Both the position numbers and the translations under genes were made by a program. Below are positions 2,722 to 23,124 of a stretch of 24,754 bases of DNA, one piece after another. The stretch spans positions 1 through 24,754 of the IMG/VR virus record IMGVR_UViG_3300009001_000087; one strand, given 5' to 3'. The notes below the pieces were generated by a model. The model worked only from the letters and a program-made list of their open reading frames with translations. It searched no databases and was not told the DNA's origin. The number at the start of each line of letters is the position of its first letter. Position 1 is the stretch's first letter. Origin of the DNA: a virus.

Positions 2722-4701
2722 TTATTTTATTGGACATGCTCCAGTAGCACACTCGTCTTCAATTATTTCATCAAACGAGTTAGCACCACTTAAATCACCT
2801 ACTGTTTTTAAAGATTTTACATAAGAATCATATTTTTCTTTTGTGACTACTTCTTGAGGCAGGTATAGATACCCTAAATCTTCAGCAGATTTACTAGGGT
2901 CATTACGATATATAAAAGAAACACCCACATAATATTCCCAATTGTCTAAAATCCACGCAACAATATCGTCTACTTCCGAAGCATCATAGCTAATAGTAAC
3001 ACTGCAATTATGTTTATCGACATAATTTTTCATAATCCATTTATATCTTTCTAATTGTTCTATAGCTGTTTCAATGTTTATTTCTTTTCCATCAACATTA
3101 TCAAACTCTACGTTATCATATTTAACTGGAAAACAAATTAATGTTGCATCAGGGTCATTTGGATTGTCAAAAACTTTATAACCTGCTTGTCTTAAAATAG
3201 ATGTTAAAGGGTCATGCTTAGAAAAGTTAATGTTATTAAAGATATATTTACCTAACGGTTTATGCACACCTTCAGTACAATCCATAATTTTAGACAAAGT
3301 TCCTGAAGGTTTTACAGTTGTAACCGCTTTACTTCTAGGTAATCCCAGCTCATCTGCCATGCTATCACAACCTCTGTATGCTTCATCTTTTACTTTTTGT
3401 AACATTCCGTCATTATATAAGTGTTGCCAACCTACAATTCCAGTTAGTCCTACACCACATAATCTTAAAAATTCATTAAGCTCGTGCCATGATGCTTGAA
3501 GGATTCCGTCATTAAGATCTACGCATGTTTGTCTATAATTAGCTCGTCCTACTAAATACATTGCTTTTAATAAACCATCAAAATCATCATTAAATTTACT
3601 AAGACAAACCTCAGAGAGGTTACAAGGGCTTCTATTACCTAGGGCTATTTCAGCACATGGGTTTACACCTTTCCACCATTCAGCTCTTTTCTGTGCTGTT
3701 TCCATATTAATAAACCCAGGTTCAGATCCCCCAGATTCTTGCATTAATTTAAATATATAATGTAACTCAGCTTTACTTGGCTTTTCTTTAAAAACTAAAC
3801 TGTTGTTAGATTGCGCTCTTTGTGGGTTGTTTACCCAAAATTCTTTTTTTGCTGTTGAGAATTCTTCCCATTGTGTTGTTCCGAATTCATGCAAACAGAT
3901 TTCAGCAGAACGGCGAGAGGATAATATTGTGCCACACCAATTGATGATGTCGAGAAGATCGATTTTTGATAATAATCTTCCCGCTTTTTTGTTGAGGATT
4001 TCAGCGATGGCAGGAAAAGCCCGTGATATTGCATCATCCCCTGAGGAAATCCATCCGTATCCTTTAAGTCTTTTTCCTGCTGGTCTAATTTCTGAGAAAT
4101 CCAAAACCAATGTATCTGCGGGGTATTTACCTGCGAGCATTTTTCCCAAAGCTTTTGCCCAACTTTCCGCAGAATCTCCAATTTTAATTGTCCAAATACC
4201 GTCTTCATACCACTCATAATTAAACGGTTTACCTTTATGTTCTTTTTCAGGAAGCTCATGTCTTTTACTCCTTATTATTTTAATTTGCATAGGATTAGTA
4301 AAGCCATTTAAAATTCCAGTAACAGCTTTAAAACCAACACCTGCGCCTTGCATTAGTAACCACAAAGCATCAACAGCGTCATGCACAGTAGCAATTTCTA
4401 AAAATGTACAATTAAATTGTGATGCTTCTCTTTCACGGGCTATGCGAGTACCCCCTAACCAAAGAGTTCTACCTGAAGTACAAACTTTTCTATCTATCAT
4501 TAATTCTCTTAAATCATCAAGCTCAAATTCTTGATCTTGTGAGAGATCTTTATGACCAATAGCTCGACTCCATAACCAGCGTTGGTGTTCTATTACTCTA
4601 TCTACTGTTTGTTCCCATGTTTCAAAAACTGTTCCTTCTTCATTGAGGGGTCTATTGTAAGTTCGTCTTGTGACAACTGATGCACGAGTGGATATATTCA
4701 T
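2722..4701 (-). CDS. Ribonucleotide reductase, class II monomeric (B12-dependent, RTPR-like)
   Basis: The enzyme reduces ribonucleotides to deoxyribonucleotides to feed phage DNA synthesis. The 659 residues show the whole catalytic set of the adenosylcobalamin-dependent monomeric enzyme. NPCAE at residues 347-351 supplies Asn347, the thiyl Cys349 and Glu351. Cys360 follows eleven residues on, the spacing of Cys408 and Cys419 in the Lactobacillus enzyme. The other active-site cysteine is Cys98 in SQFNCTFLE. The C-terminal pair Cys651 and Cys656 in DECATGACPIK matches the regenerating pair of that enzyme in spacing. GAGVGFKAV lies near residue 119 and VKPSGTLSKI in the second half. No small subunit is needed for this class. 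The ATG abuts the DUF3310 stop, so the two genes are likely co-translated. A terminator follows. Confidence 0.9.
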   Translation of the reverse strand: MNISTRASVVTRRTYNRPLNEEGTVFETWEQTVDRVIEHQRWLWSRAIGHKDLSQDQEFELDDLRELMIDRKVCTSGRTLWLGGTRIAREREASQFNCTFLEIATVHDAVDALWLLMQGAGVGFKAVTGILNGFTNPMQIKIIRSKRHELPEKEHKGKPFNYEWYEDGIWTIKIGDSAESWAKALGKMLAGKYPADTLVLDFSEIRPAGKRLKGYGWISSGDDAISRAFPAIAEILNKKAGRLLSKIDLLDIINWCGTILSSRRSAEICLHEFGTTQWEEFSTAKKEFWVNNPQRAQSNNSLVFKEKPSKAELHYIFKLMQESGGSEPGFINMETAQKRAEWWKGVNPCAEIALGNRSPCNLSEVCLSKFNDDFDGLLKAMYLVGRANYRQTCVDLNDGILQASWHELNEFLRLCGVGLTGIVGWQHLYNDGMLQKVKDEAYRGCDSMADELGLPRSKAVTTVKPSGTLSKIMDCTEGVHKPLGKYIFNNINFSKHDPLTSILRQAGYKVFDNPNDPDATLICFPVKYDNVEFDNVDGKEINIETAIEQLERYKWIMKNYVDKHNCSVTISYDASEVDDIVAWILDNWEYYVGVSFIYRNDPSKSAEDLGYLYLPQEVVTKEKYDSYVKSLKTVGDLSGANSFDEIIEDECATGACPIK

Positions 4702-14910: not shown

Positions 14911-14998
14911 GCGAGCATGGCGGAATCGGTATACGCAACGGACTTAAAATCCGTCCCCAATTATTGGGTTGTGGGTTCAAGTCCCACTGCTCGCACCA
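14911..14998 (+). tRNA. tRNA-Leu (anticodon UAA), probable attP site
   Basis: The 88-base gene folds as a class II tRNA. The acceptor stem GCGAGCA / TGCTCGC pairs perfectly, followed by discriminator A and an encoded CCA. The D stem is GCG / CGC. The anticodon stem ACGGA / TCCGT encloses the loop CTTAAAA with anticodon TAA. A long variable arm (CCCAATTATTGGG) is present, and the T stem GTGGG / CCCAC has loop TTCAAGT. It is the only plus-strand gene seen. Next to a tyrosine integrase it is most likely the attachment site. Unusually the whole tRNA is present, not only a 3' part, so it could restore or supply the tRNA. Confidence 0.95.
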
Positions 14999-19266: not shown

Positions 19267-20895
19267 TTACATCCATTTGGTCTGTTTTTTTGTCTTACCA
19301 ATAGCAGTTTCCATGAACTTTTCTAGCTGTATATCTAACAGTTCATCCTGATGGTCTTTAATAGCTAGTTCGACATCTCTGTCCATAGTTTCTACCCAAT
19401 AGTTCACACCAATAGATAAAGCATCTAGTCTATCATCGTGATTGATTGCACCTTTAGTTCTTGTCATTCGAGTCATCTGATAGAATAACTGATTAGGTAA
19501 ATCTGCTTCAAAATCTTTATGTATAATCTTTTCGTCTATAACTAAGCGATGCTGATTCATAACAGGTTCTAATGTATCGATGATACGTTTCTCTTTCTGT
19601 ATATTATGTCTTACTTCTTCCATACTAACAGGATACGTTTTAGCCATAATGGGTTTCAACAGTTGTGTAAACATACCGTCACCAAAGTTACTCTCTATTA
19701 CTATCTGGTTGACTTTCTGCTGCTTCGCTACATCTGCAAGGTGCTGTAAGCTCTCTGACGAGTACCCTTCTTTTGTCGCTCCCATAGCCGTCAAATAGAG
19801 TACCCCTGATTGCATCTTGATAACCACATACGCACTCTCGTCCGCTCCTCTTCCTGACGGGTCTATTGCCATCACGCTTCCTTGCCATTCGCTTGTCTCC
19901 TTACTGATTGATAAAGGGGATACCCAAAAATCGGCTTTAAGTCCTACATTAGGTAGTTGATTGCATTCTTCTATTTGTTGTTTACCTGAAGCCCACAACA
20001 CTTTGACAGGAGCTTCTGACCAAGTCCCAGGACCAGACATAACTATTAAATCATTTAACTTTAAGGGATACTTATTAGAATCGGATAGGGTAGTGTCTAA
20101 CATAAACTGTAAGGCAAACCCACTTTTTCCATAAGAGATTTCTCTCTCTAGTAAGTCATCATCGCTAAAGCGGTCAGGATCAGTAGATTTGCCTACAGTC
20201 CCTGATGTACAGATAGAAGCTAGTCTGTTTGCATATGCTTCTACCTTTTCAGGATATCTTGCTGGCCATATCTTACAAGTATAGCCACGTTCTTCTAAAA
20301 CATTATATAATGACATTTCTGTTTGGGGTGTGCCTAAAAATACTATACGTCCATTAGGTTTTATAATAGCTTCAAACTCTTTTACAGTTTCAGCAAGCTT
20401 GTCACGCATAGTTTGTGTTAAGGAATTATTTGCACTTTCCACGTCGTCAGCTACGATGAGGTCGGCTCTGCTTCCAGTAAGCTGTCCTGTAACTCCTAAC
20501 GATTTAACAGAAGGGGCGTGAGACGCTTGGGCAGGAGCAACATCAAAAGATATCTTTGACATTCTTTGTCCTTCTTTTGGTATTAAATGCTGAAGGATTG
20601 GCATTTCGTGTATGATACGCATAGTAAAAGTACTGAAGTCATCACTACGAGTTTTACTAGCTGATACCACTAATATGTTTAACTGTGGGTTTAGTAACAA
20701 TTGGTGACACACATAAGCTGAAGTTATCCATGATTTACCTACACCTCTAAAAGCTTCTATTACCATTCTAGATGTGCCGTTTTGCAGATAATCAGCAATA
20801 TCATATTGCACAGGTGTAGGATCAGGTAGGTTTAGATGTTTCCAAGTAGCCCACAAAAAGTTTTTAAAGTCTTCTAACTTACCCTGTTTTGACAC
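19267..20895 (-). CDS. Terminase large subunit, T7 gp19-like
   Basis: The motor protein pumps DNA into the procapsid and cuts the concatemer. The 542-residue protein has the ATPase domain first: Walker A-like AFRGVGKSW at about 48-56, Walker B LIVADD ending at Asp150-Asp151, and a coupling region around IVFLGTPQTEMSLY. The RNase H-like nuclease domain follows, with MAIDPSGRGADES near 350, VIESNFGDGMF near 400 and HDDRLDALSIG near 497, which supply the acidic metal ligands. T7 gp19 is 586 residues. The start is GTG 20895, overlapping the end of the preceding gene; AGAGG is a few bases too far upstream to be ideal. It is the last gene before the genome-end region. Confidence 0.95.
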   Translation of the reverse strand: MSKQGKLEDFKNFLWATWKHLNLPDPTPVQYDIADYLQNGTSRMVIEAFRGVGKSWITSAYVCHQLLLNPQLNILVVSASKTRSDDFSTFTMRIIHEMPILQHLIPKEGQRMSKISFDVAPAQASHAPSVKSLGVTGQLTGSRADLIVADDVESANNSLTQTMRDKLAETVKEFEAIIKPNGRIVFLGTPQTEMSLYNVLEERGYTCKIWPARYPEKVEAYANRLASICTSGTVGKSTDPDRFSDDDLLEREISYGKSGFALQFMLDTTLSDSNKYPLKLNDLIVMSGPGTWSEAPVKVLWASGKQQIEECNQLPNVGLKADFWVSPLSISKETSEWQGSVMAIDPSGRGADESAYVVIKMQSGVLYLTAMGATKEGYSSESLQHLADVAKQQKVNQIVIESNFGDGMFTQLLKPIMAKTYPVSMEEVRHNIQKEKRIIDTLEPVMNQHRLVIDEKIIHKDFEADLPNQLFYQMTRMTRTKGAINHDDRLDALSIGVNYWVETMDRDVELAIKDHQDELLDIQLEKFMETAIGKTKKQTKWM

Positions 20896-21599: not shown

Positions 21600-21887
21600 T
21601 TATAGTTTTTCGATTTTATTAAAGAGTGCTTTTTCAATTCGAGGTAATAAACGAATGCCACAGTACCCTATTAAGTATGCAATGGCTGGGCCTGTTGTCA
21701 TTGAAAATTTCCAATAACCCATAATAGCAGGTATTAAAATCTCAGCAGAAATAACGCCGACAAGTACAGCAGCAACTATATCCCACAGTTTAATCTTTCG
21801 ATTAACAATCCAGTTTGTAATACCACCTAAAGTTGACCCAAAAATACAACAAAGTTTTGCACCAAATGTAGCTATTAACCATTCCAT
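21600..21887 (-). CDS. Holin-like membrane protein with three hydrophobic segments
   Basis: The 95-residue protein has hydrophobic segments at about 5-27 (IATFGAKLCCIFGSTLGGI), 36-54 (DIVAAVLVGVISAEILIPA) and 66-80 (GPAIAYLIGYCGIRL), and ends in a charged tail (EKALFNKIEKL). The pattern of K-x-hydrophobic, GVISAE, GP.IAY.IG is that of small class I phage holins, which form pores at lysis. GGGGGA precedes ATG 21887. A structured spacer lies directly upstream. Together with two other holin-like proteins close by, the real holin cannot be named with certainty. Confidence 0.65.
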   Translation of the reverse strand: MEWLIATFGAKLCCIFGSTLGGITNWIVNRKIKLWDIVAAVLVGVISAEILIPAIMGYWKFSMTTGPAIAYLIGYCGIRLLPRIEKALFNKIEKL

Positions 21888-21984: not shown

Positions 21985-22170
21985 TTAATAATTAGTTATT
22001 CTTTTAGTTTTTTCTTTCATAAAGAAACCTAAAACACCTGATATTCCACAACCAAGCATAACAATGGATTGCCATAAGTCACTAGGAATAACTACACCCA
22101 CCATTGCTAATACACCTGATAAAGCGGCATAAGATGATGGTTCTTTAAATCTATCAATAATTTGTATCAT
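21985..22170 (-). CDS. Small holin-like protein with two transmembrane segments
   Basis: The 61-residue product begins MIQIIDRFKEPSSYAALSGV and has hydrophobic segments at about 14-28 (YAALSGVLAMVGVVI) and 35-51 (SIVMLGCGISGVLGFFM), followed by a basic end (KEKTKRITNY). A short protein with two helices and a charged end fits a class II holin or an anti-holin. ATG 22170 overlaps the stop of the small terminase (TAATG). A structured spacer follows it. Confidence 0.6.
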   Translation of the reverse strand: MIQIIDRFKEPSSYAALSGVLAMVGVVIPSDLWQSIVMLGCGISGVLGFFMKEKTKRITNY

Positions 22171-22400
22171 TAATTTAAGTCCTTTTCTTTTTCGTCTTCT
22201 TCAAAAGGCATTGCTGCTAACAATGTCTGTAAAGAATTAGATTGTGCTGGAATCGAAGTTATATCGTTATCTTTTAAGAATTGACGAGCTACATTTAAAT
22301 CACTAGCTTTTGCTTCACCAGATTTTACTAAAGCAATTAAATTATTTGCTAATAACGTATGTAATTCTTTTAACTTGTCATCAGATTTATTAGTTGCCAT
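22170..22400 (-). CDS. Terminase small subunit, T7 gp18-like
   Basis: The protein recognises phage DNA and guides the large subunit to it. The 76-residue product has the family core: LKELHTLLANNLIALVKSGE near residues 10-29 followed by ASDLNVARQFLKDNDI near 32-52. It ends in an acidic tail (FEEDEKEKDLN). The pattern SGEAxxxDLNVARQFLKDN is typical for these DNA packaging proteins; T7 gp18 has 89 residues. AAGGAG precedes ATG 22400 and the start overlaps the gene before. It lies among holin-like genes, as T7 gp18 follows the holin gp17.5. Confidence 0.88.
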   Translation of the reverse strand: MATNKSDDKLKELHTLLANNLIALVKSGEAKASDLNVARQFLKDNDITSIPAQSNSLQTLLAAMPFEEDEKEKDLN

Positions 22401-22797
22401 CTTTTCTCCTTAAATTTTGTGAAATCTTTTCTCCTGATCTTCCTACTGCATAACCACCCACACCAACTGTAAGTAATGTCCATAGTTGATCTGGTAGTTC
22501 AAGCACTAGATTAAACTGAAAGATGGCAGAGATAAGTGGCCCAGCTAAATAATTCCAAAAGATAATAGCCGTTATAGTTAGCATAAGAATAGGTCGCCAA
22601 CTTGCAGTTATCCAATGCTCACTTTTAGCTTCTGCTAAAATAATGTTATTGGCTGCACTTTCGATTTCTGTAGATTTTTCTAGGAGAGCCAAACGAATTT
22701 CTCTTTCGGCTTCTACCTGCTTGTCTTTATCAGGCATTATACGTTTAACTGTATCTCCTAGAATAGGAGCAAGAATAGGTATTAAAGCTTGTAACAT
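22390..22797 (-). CDS. Three-TM holin family protein (GTA-holin-like)
   Basis: The 135-residue protein starts with a short hydrophobic part (MLQALIPILAPILGDTVKRI), then an amphipathic charged helix (KQVEAEREIRLALLEKSTEI near 26-45), then ITASWRPILMLTITAIIFWNYL near 63-84 and WTLLTVGVGGYAVGRSGEKI near 106-125. WITASWRPILML followed by a late GVGGYxxGRSxEK pattern is typical of the 3-TM holins first described for gene transfer agents. The ATG at 22797 overlaps the stop of the PqqA-like peptide (TAATG), so the two are translated together. It probably forms lysis pores. Confidence 0.82.
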   Translation of the reverse strand: MLQALIPILAPILGDTVKRIMPDKDKQVEAEREIRLALLEKSTEIESAANNIILAEAKSEHWITASWRPILMLTITAIIFWNYLAGPLISAIFQFNLVLELPDQLWTLLTVGVGGYAVGRSGEKISQNLRRKDGN

Positions 22798-22871
22798 TAA
22801 ATTTCAGCACAGGCATAACAGTTGATTTCTAAACCAACAGCTACTTCTTTAACTATAGGTGATTTCCACAT
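22797..22871 (-). CDS. pqqA-like: PqqA-like peptide (PQQ precursor family)
   Basis: This 24-residue frame reads MWKSPIVKEV then AVGLEINCYACAEI. Glu15 and Tyr19 fall exactly where the cross-linked Glu and Tyr of the PQQ precursor PqqA lie (E-x3-Y), behind the conserved Gly13. PIV-E-VG-E-Y-AEI also matches the PqqA of methylotrophs as I remember it. AAAGGA precedes ATG 22871 by about seven bases, and the stop overlaps the next start (TAATG), so it is very likely translated. PqqA is modified by PqqE (radical SAM) and then becomes the cofactor pyrroloquinoline quinone. No pqqB-E genes are in the window, so the host would have to supply them. Cys18 and Cys21 are unusual. It could alternatively be another modified peptide. 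Confidence 0.75.
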   Translation of the reverse strand: MWKSPIVKEVAVGLEINCYACAEI

Positions 22872-22893
22872 ATTAGTTCCTTTCTATATTAAA

Positions 22894-23124
22894 TTAAACA
22901 AATTGACTTTTAAGTAAAAGAAATATGAGAGCGACTCCAACTCCAGTTGCAATGAACCAACCGAGCCGTTCCCATCTATTAGAATTTCTTTGGATAGCTT
23001 CTTTGACATTACGAAGTTCCACCATGCACTCAGACCATCTATTAGAACATTCTCGTTCATGGTTTTCTATTCTCCTTAACGCTTCCATTGCAAGTTCCAG
23101 AGAGTTTTTATCGTTTTCATTCAT
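22894..23124 (-). CDS. Coiled-coil protein with C-terminal membrane anchor
   Basis: The 76-residue product has a long charged helix (NSLELAMEALRRIENHERE, ECMVELRNVKEAIQRNSNRW) that looks like a coiled coil, followed by one hydrophobic segment at about 55-71 (LGWFIATGVGVALIFLL) and KSQFV. This order resembles the XhlA-type accessory proteins of lysis clusters and many tail-anchored phage proteins. AAGGA precedes ATG 23124 by six bases. It comes just before the PqqA-like and holin genes and may be a lysis accessory; it has no motif that settles this. Confidence 0.65.
   Translation of the reverse strand: MNENDKNSLELAMEALRRIENHERECSNRWSECMVELRNVKEAIQRNSNRWERLGWFIATGVGVALIFLLLKSQFV

Follow-up and report, generated by a model that had tools for sequence, protein, structure and literature searches.

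A stand-alone gene for the PQQ precursor peptide PqqA in a T7-like marine phage, and its counterparts in other phages

The window, a 24,754-base virus record, carries a 24-codon gene directly 5' of a holin gene. Judged by its sequence, this gene is a genuine pqqA, and its identity is secure. The assignment follows from matches to two curated profiles, from Glu15 and Tyr19 being universal among the relatives, and from strong purifying selection. We consider it likely that the gene serves as a substrate-only auxiliary metabolic gene, with which the phage supplies the peptide precursor of PQQ and leaves the rest of the pathway to the host.

The pqqA gene and the phage that carries it

The reading frame (Table 1) runs from an ATG at 22871 to a TAA stop (22799-22797) in the window translation. 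The initial annotation had described a 24-codon gene with a good ribosome binding site, coupled by TAATG to a 3-TM holin gene. This description is borne out by the AAGGA 6 nt from the ATG and by the PF11351 and phrog_3427 matches of the downstream product. The position given for the gene was right; its strand, which had been left unstated, is minus. The minus strand reads agaAAGGAactaatATG, and TTTAATGTTAC at the gene end, where the TAA and the holin ATG have one A in common. Gly13, Glu15, Cys18, Tyr19, and Cys21 lie where they had been placed, and Glu15 with Tyr19 forms the pair in which a cross-link is expected.

The likeness to PqqA that had been noted from the sequence was confirmed by profile search. 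The peptide scores 27.7 bits against the equivalog model TIGR02107 (cut-off 20; E 1.8e-6) and 24.6 bits against PF08042 (cut-off 21.1; E 2.6e-5), and both cut-offs are curated. It shares with the family a length of 24, a W-x-x-P start, Glu-x3-Tyr, and a Gly two residues before the Glu. It differs in being phage-encoded and alone, 5' of a holin, in a contig set with neither pqqB-E nor a PQQ dehydrogenase. The solved structures searched with the 24-mer gave no match.

Table 1. Positions of pqqA and neighboring features in the window and of unannotated pqqA genes in phage records.
Feature	Record	Position	Strand	Assignment and basis
pqqA	Window	22797..22871	(-)	24-codon PqqA precursor peptide gene, MWKSPIVKEVAVGLEINCYACAEI; translation, TIGR02107, PF08042, conservation in relatives
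Ribosome binding site AAGGA	Window	22878..22882	(-)	6 nt 5' of pqqA ATG; sequence
TAATG stop/start overlap, pqqA/holin gene	Window	22795..22799	(-)	Sequence
3-TM holin (GTA_holin_3TM)	Window	22390..22797	(-)	PF11351 E 1.2e-18; phrog_3427 holin E 1.2e-29
76-aa protein, C-terminal hydrophobic stretch, 5' of pqqA	Window	22894..23124	(-)	Position alone suggests a lysis accessory
Terminase small subunit (T7 DNA maturase A-like)	Window	22170..22400	(-)	PF11123 DNA_Packaging_2 E 3e-17; phrog_891
Terminase large subunit (DNA maturase B)	Window	19267..20895	(-)	tblastn, 67% identity to Pelagibacter phages HTVC142P, Eistla
tRNA-Leu(TAA), complete	Window	14911-14998		Adjoins integrase; likely attachment site
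Unannotated pqqA	MW452941	3319-3381
Unannotated pqqA	KX815270	28088-28150
Unannotated pqqA	MT375522	9980-10042
Unannotated pqqA	OP830906	41905-41967
Unannotated pqqA	MZ577097	76140-76196
Unannotated pqqA	OP830907	near 43050-43115

The record belongs to an autographivirus and encodes an integrase, a T7-type RNA polymerase, and TerL. With terminase, holin, integrase, and polymerase on one contig, the surroundings of pqqA are a true phage genome. The product encoded 5' of pqqA has no PHROG or NCBIfam match and none in Pfam above the cut-off. A second small membrane protein (21600-21887) has weak holin matches (phrog_2359), and the phage may therefore have two holins. The closest annotated relatives are SAR11 phages and, more distantly, Roseobacter phages: TerL is 67% and the RNA polymerase 44-45% identical to those of HTVC142P and Eistla. 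The SAR11 autographiviruses (Eistla, HTVC142P, HTVC031P) share the T7-like gene set; however, their records contain no PqqA match.

The host of the window phage is probably an alphaproteobacterium. A literature search on AEGEAN-169 as the host gave no supporting paper. The tRNA-Leu(TAA) could name the host, given a matching genome. Exact and relaxed patterns of it found no match in the genome collection, and against plasmids and E. coli the only results were matches of 74-78% identity along most of the tRNA, or short incomplete ones. The window also encodes a ribonucleotide reductase (2722-4701; PF17975 and PF02867 above cut-off), in which the insertion domain of the B12-dependent class II matches just below the cut-off. 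This suggests that the host or the environment supplies cobalamin.

Conservation, selection, and spread among viruses

Relatives were collected by scanning IMG/VR virus contigs for a pattern constrained at parts of residues 1-13 only. Residues 14-24 were free, so that neither Glu15 nor Tyr19 was required. The scan gave 78 distinct peptides, 76 of them 24-residue relatives. Leu14, Glu15, Ile16, Asn17, Tyr19, and Cys21 are present in all 76, and residue 18 is Cys in 71 of them and Ser in the other 5. Lack of a PqqA profile hit and loss of Glu15 or Tyr19 in related phages had been named beforehand as findings that would count against PqqA; the profiles match, and both residues are kept throughout. 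The remaining two peptides are a chance match ending after five residues and one with a long acidic tail and the core kept (locus L201, 1682 onward; an Asp/Ser-rich tail brings it to 60 residues in all).

For 98 distinct genes recovered without selection on codons 14-24, pN/pS is 0.086 over those codons and 0.032 over codons 14-19, and synonymous sites are saturated. Glu15 is encoded by GAA and GAG (72/26) and Tyr19 by TAT and TAC (76/22). These substitution patterns indicate that viral pqqA is a real gene under strong selection on the PQQ-forming residues. Chance resemblance to PqqA is ruled out by both profiles, by residue conservation in the relatives, and by pN/pS.

Six further virus records with holins 76-100% identical to that of the window carry this gene at the same position; more distant holin relatives are without it. 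Beyond this family, a degenerate PqqA pattern matched at least 120 stretches in virus contigs, and short PqqA-like ORFs make up nearly all of the 80 loci among the matches listed. We surveyed the neighbors of pqqA at 161 viral loci, which encode 115 distinct peptides. An AGGA, GGAG, GAGG, or AAGG motif lies within 20 nt upstream of the gene at 158 of them. The immediate neighbors belong to a dozen or more unrelated families, including a portal protein common to the HTVC027P and CRP-901 type, a T4-type late promoter regulator, the terminase small subunit, holins, and unknowns; in OM43 phages pqqA lies beside recombination genes. The cores differ, with GLEINCY counted 75 times, GLEINSY 22, and GFEVTMY 5, and others such as GMEVTSY and GLEVTLY. 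Differing cores and unrelated neighbor families together suggest repeated capture of pqqA from different hosts.

The neighboring pqqBCDE genes, usual for PqqA and not required for it, were not encountered at the viral loci fetched. No pqqB-E was found in any fetched viral flank, on which ground host contamination is rejected, and neither PqqE nor PQQ-dehydrogenase repeats were found in the 50 longer pqqA-bearing virus records searched. At two loci (L145 and L162, and in part at L066) pqqA is preceded by a fatty acid desaturase/AlkB-type gene (PF00487; motif NYLEHYGL) whose end lies 147 nt away. Alkane oxidation yields alcohols, which PQQ dehydrogenases can use.

Methylophilales phages

We searched 50,697 annotated phage records by tblastn with a methylotroph-type (GFEVTMY) PqqA query. 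It matched P19250A, MEP301, Venkman, MEP401, MEP402, and four Melnitz isolates. These are nine of nine searchable Methylophilales records, a set that leaves out MEP431-434 (OM43 autographiviruses), Venkman EXVC038S, and pHIMB624-A, all of which are in the NCBI taxonomy. Further matches were a spring-water podovirus (MW202481) and two records labeled Acinetobacter phage MD-2021a (CAKLQF020000010.1 and CAKLQH020000055.1). The former, when opened, has bacterial pqqB, pqqC, pqqD, and a PqqE-like gene after pqqA and looks like host chromosome filed as phage; both look like mislabeled bacterial contigs. An enteric-type PqqA query returned these same records and none from a Klebsiella or E. coli phage.

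The six Methylophilales phage copies that were opened are intact ORFs with ribosome sites, and the five records scanned with TIGR02107 score 31.6-38.4 bits. In the records opened, pqqA is missing from the deposited annotation (Table 1): the locus has no gene call at all or has one on the opposite strand. Earlier OM43 phage isolates, namely Venkman, MEP301, and Melnitz, form three distinct groups, to which MEP401/402 of the Zobellviridae were added in 2023 (PMC10580990); we found no mention of PQQ in the text of that paper. Venkman and P19250A fall in one genus-level cluster (PMC8163748). These groupings amount to about four unrelated lineages that infect PQQ-dependent methylotrophs, and pqqA is present in each.

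Like the window peptide, these are stand-alone products of 23-24 aa preceded by a ribosome site, and their methylotroph hosts are known. They differ in having a GFEVTMY core without cysteines, where the window has GLEINCYAC, and in lying at other genome positions. Searching the annotated phage collection for the GLEIN[CS]Y type gave no match, so the link to methylotrophs rests on a different PqqA dialect than that of the window.

Possible roles of the peptide

PqqE, a radical-SAM enzyme, receives PqqA from PqqD and makes the Glu-Tyr link; proteases, PqqB, and PqqC complete PQQ. One PqqA is consumed per PQQ made, and the pathway enzymes are reused. Once transcription is under the control of a T7-like phage, host pqqA mRNA would be exhausted before anything else. 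The phage copy would stand in for only the consumed part while host PqqBCDE persist and continue, which would explain why phages carry pqqA alone: enzymes outlast the takeover, and the consumed peptide needs resupply. The PQQ would be loaded into periplasmic dehydrogenases, in marine methylotrophs mainly the XoxF methanol dehydrogenase, and these would provide the electrons and C1 units needed to make new phage. We infer that the peptide is produced and accepted by host PqqD and PqqE, that PQQ is raised or sustained, and that the host of the window phage makes PQQ.

Among the roles put forward in the initial annotation, the one with the best support is that the phage raises or sustains host PQQ for dehydrogenases, since the PqqA query finds almost only Methylophilales phages in the annotated collection. 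XoxF4 is exclusive to Methylophilaceae (PMC11996626), xoxF is always the most abundant transcript of OM43 (PMC5120137), and this host group uses XoxF and has pqq peptidase genes (PMC5120137, PMC11996626). A pqqA in a phage has also been published: the Lake Baikal methylotroph phage VP_266 carries it together with a methanol dehydrogenase, and it was interpreted there as an auxiliary metabolic gene that would serve PQQ in the host (2020, PMC7678222). That case is one freshwater population with the dehydrogenase encoded as well, whereas the window has a stand-alone pqqA in a T7-like marine phage and the gene recurs in many lineages. Supply of the substrate to the host is also favored by the presence of intact, conserved pqqA, without other pqq genes, in many unrelated phages. 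The gene is under purifying selection, takes varied positions, and stands outside replication, structure, and lysis, as an auxiliary gene should. Against this role, pqqA lies in an apparent late lysis and packaging block, which is late for a metabolic boost. On balance a metabolic role is likely, and the phages probably keep host methanol oxidation running during infection.

Lysis timing had also been put forward. The peptide would then regulate the holin or the timing of lysis and resemble PqqA by descent only, which we regard as very unlikely. It is true that pqqA lies directly 5' of the holin gene with the overlapping TAATG in the window and three relatives (L002, L003, L004), and that a holin of the window family lies directly upstream of pqqA at three loci. 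However, the overlap is not conserved, being lost to a 3-nt gap in L005 and L007. The constant holin association expected of a lysis cassette regulator was not seen: a holin like that of the window adjoins pqqA at 8 of the 161 loci (18 by the looser single-linkage clustering), and at others the neighbors are the portal, terminase, late-regulator, and recombination genes named above. Two TerL relatives with 70% identity (L262, L263) have no pqqA, and in its slot there is either nothing or a different cargo gene. In L263 this is a 362-residue ring-hydroxylating oxygenase-like protein (624-1712; PF00848 just under cut-off), encoded directly before the holin-position gene. The absence of pqqA beside more distant holins and the conservation of precisely the residues of PQQ chemistry also speak against a lysis peptide. 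Given this variable slot and the few loci with a window-like holin, lysis timing is a poor explanation, and as the main role it is rejected on the varied neighbors and the pqqA-less TerL relatives.

The two cysteines had been called extra and taken as a hint of another modification. The peptide could feed a different host radical-SAM/SPASM enzyme and become another modified product (a signal, a toxin, or a superinfection factor) with Cys18 and Cys21 modified. The invariance of Cys21 and the frequency of Cys at residue 18 would fit this, as would the acidic tail of the L201 peptide and the lack, in these phages, of a pathway enzyme tying the peptide to PQQ. Still, each cysteine occurs singly in cellular PqqA, which we compared through the few sequences in plasmid records. 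The Sphingomonas peptide (GAEINCYASAELNA), encoded within pqqABCDE, and the Roseomonas peptide (GMEINCYEGAEV), whose gene precedes pqqE, have Cys18; the Azospirillum peptide (GTEINAYACAGL), whose gene is followed by pqqBCDE, has Cys21. The two cysteines together were not seen among these few. A true PqqA beside pqqBCDE or pqqE can thus have Cys at either place, which weakens the hint. The Methylophilales phage copies have neither Cys, and the window peptide passes the PqqA equivalog model. These alphaproteobacterial peptides share the EIN-x-Y core and are 52-62% identical to the window peptide; they differ in being cell-encoded beside pqqBCDE or pqqE, although one Azospirillum copy that was opened stands alone. 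On this comparison the window peptide has the look of an alphaproteobacterial PqqA more than of a specially modified one, and a different modified product is unlikely.

A decoy that occupies PqqD and PqqE and lowers host PQQ seems slightly less credible still than a lysis peptide. Competitor and substrate would look alike in sequence, and no result favors the decoy. A decoy could do without the reactive Glu and Tyr, yet both are invariant. The least probable alternative is a recently captured host gene that brings the phage no benefit, or host DNA wrongly filed as viral. In its favor, a pqqA gene is very small, and methylotroph genomes contain orphan copies; Hyphomicrobium has five pqqA copies, three of them apart from operons (PMC9851590). 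Against neutral cargo stand the low pN/pS with saturated synonymous sites and the presence of pqqA in every searchable Methylophilales phage record, and the viral neighbors with no pqqB-E alongside argue against misfiled DNA as well.

Supply of the PQQ precursor may extend well beyond the window. We lean, by a modest degree, toward the broader proposal that pqqA has been taken up alone and independently by many unrelated phages of PQQ-dependent bacteria. It would represent a general kind of substrate-only auxiliary gene, overlooked for its 24 codons, that sustains much marine methanol oxidation during infection. Taken singly, the window gene would be a further example of a published idea; what appears surprising is the recurrence across phage lineages and the absence from deposited annotations. 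A 24-codon gene can thus be missed by annotation in all searchable phages of one host group. Ocean methanol oxidation is dominated by PQQ methanol dehydrogenases (PMC11996626). With the isolates Melnitz and Venkman (on H5P1) and MEP301 (on FZCC2181), the idea can be tested directly in culture. If phages routinely bring the PQQ precursor, infection would sustain methanol-oxidation flux, as has been proposed for phage psbA and photosynthesis.
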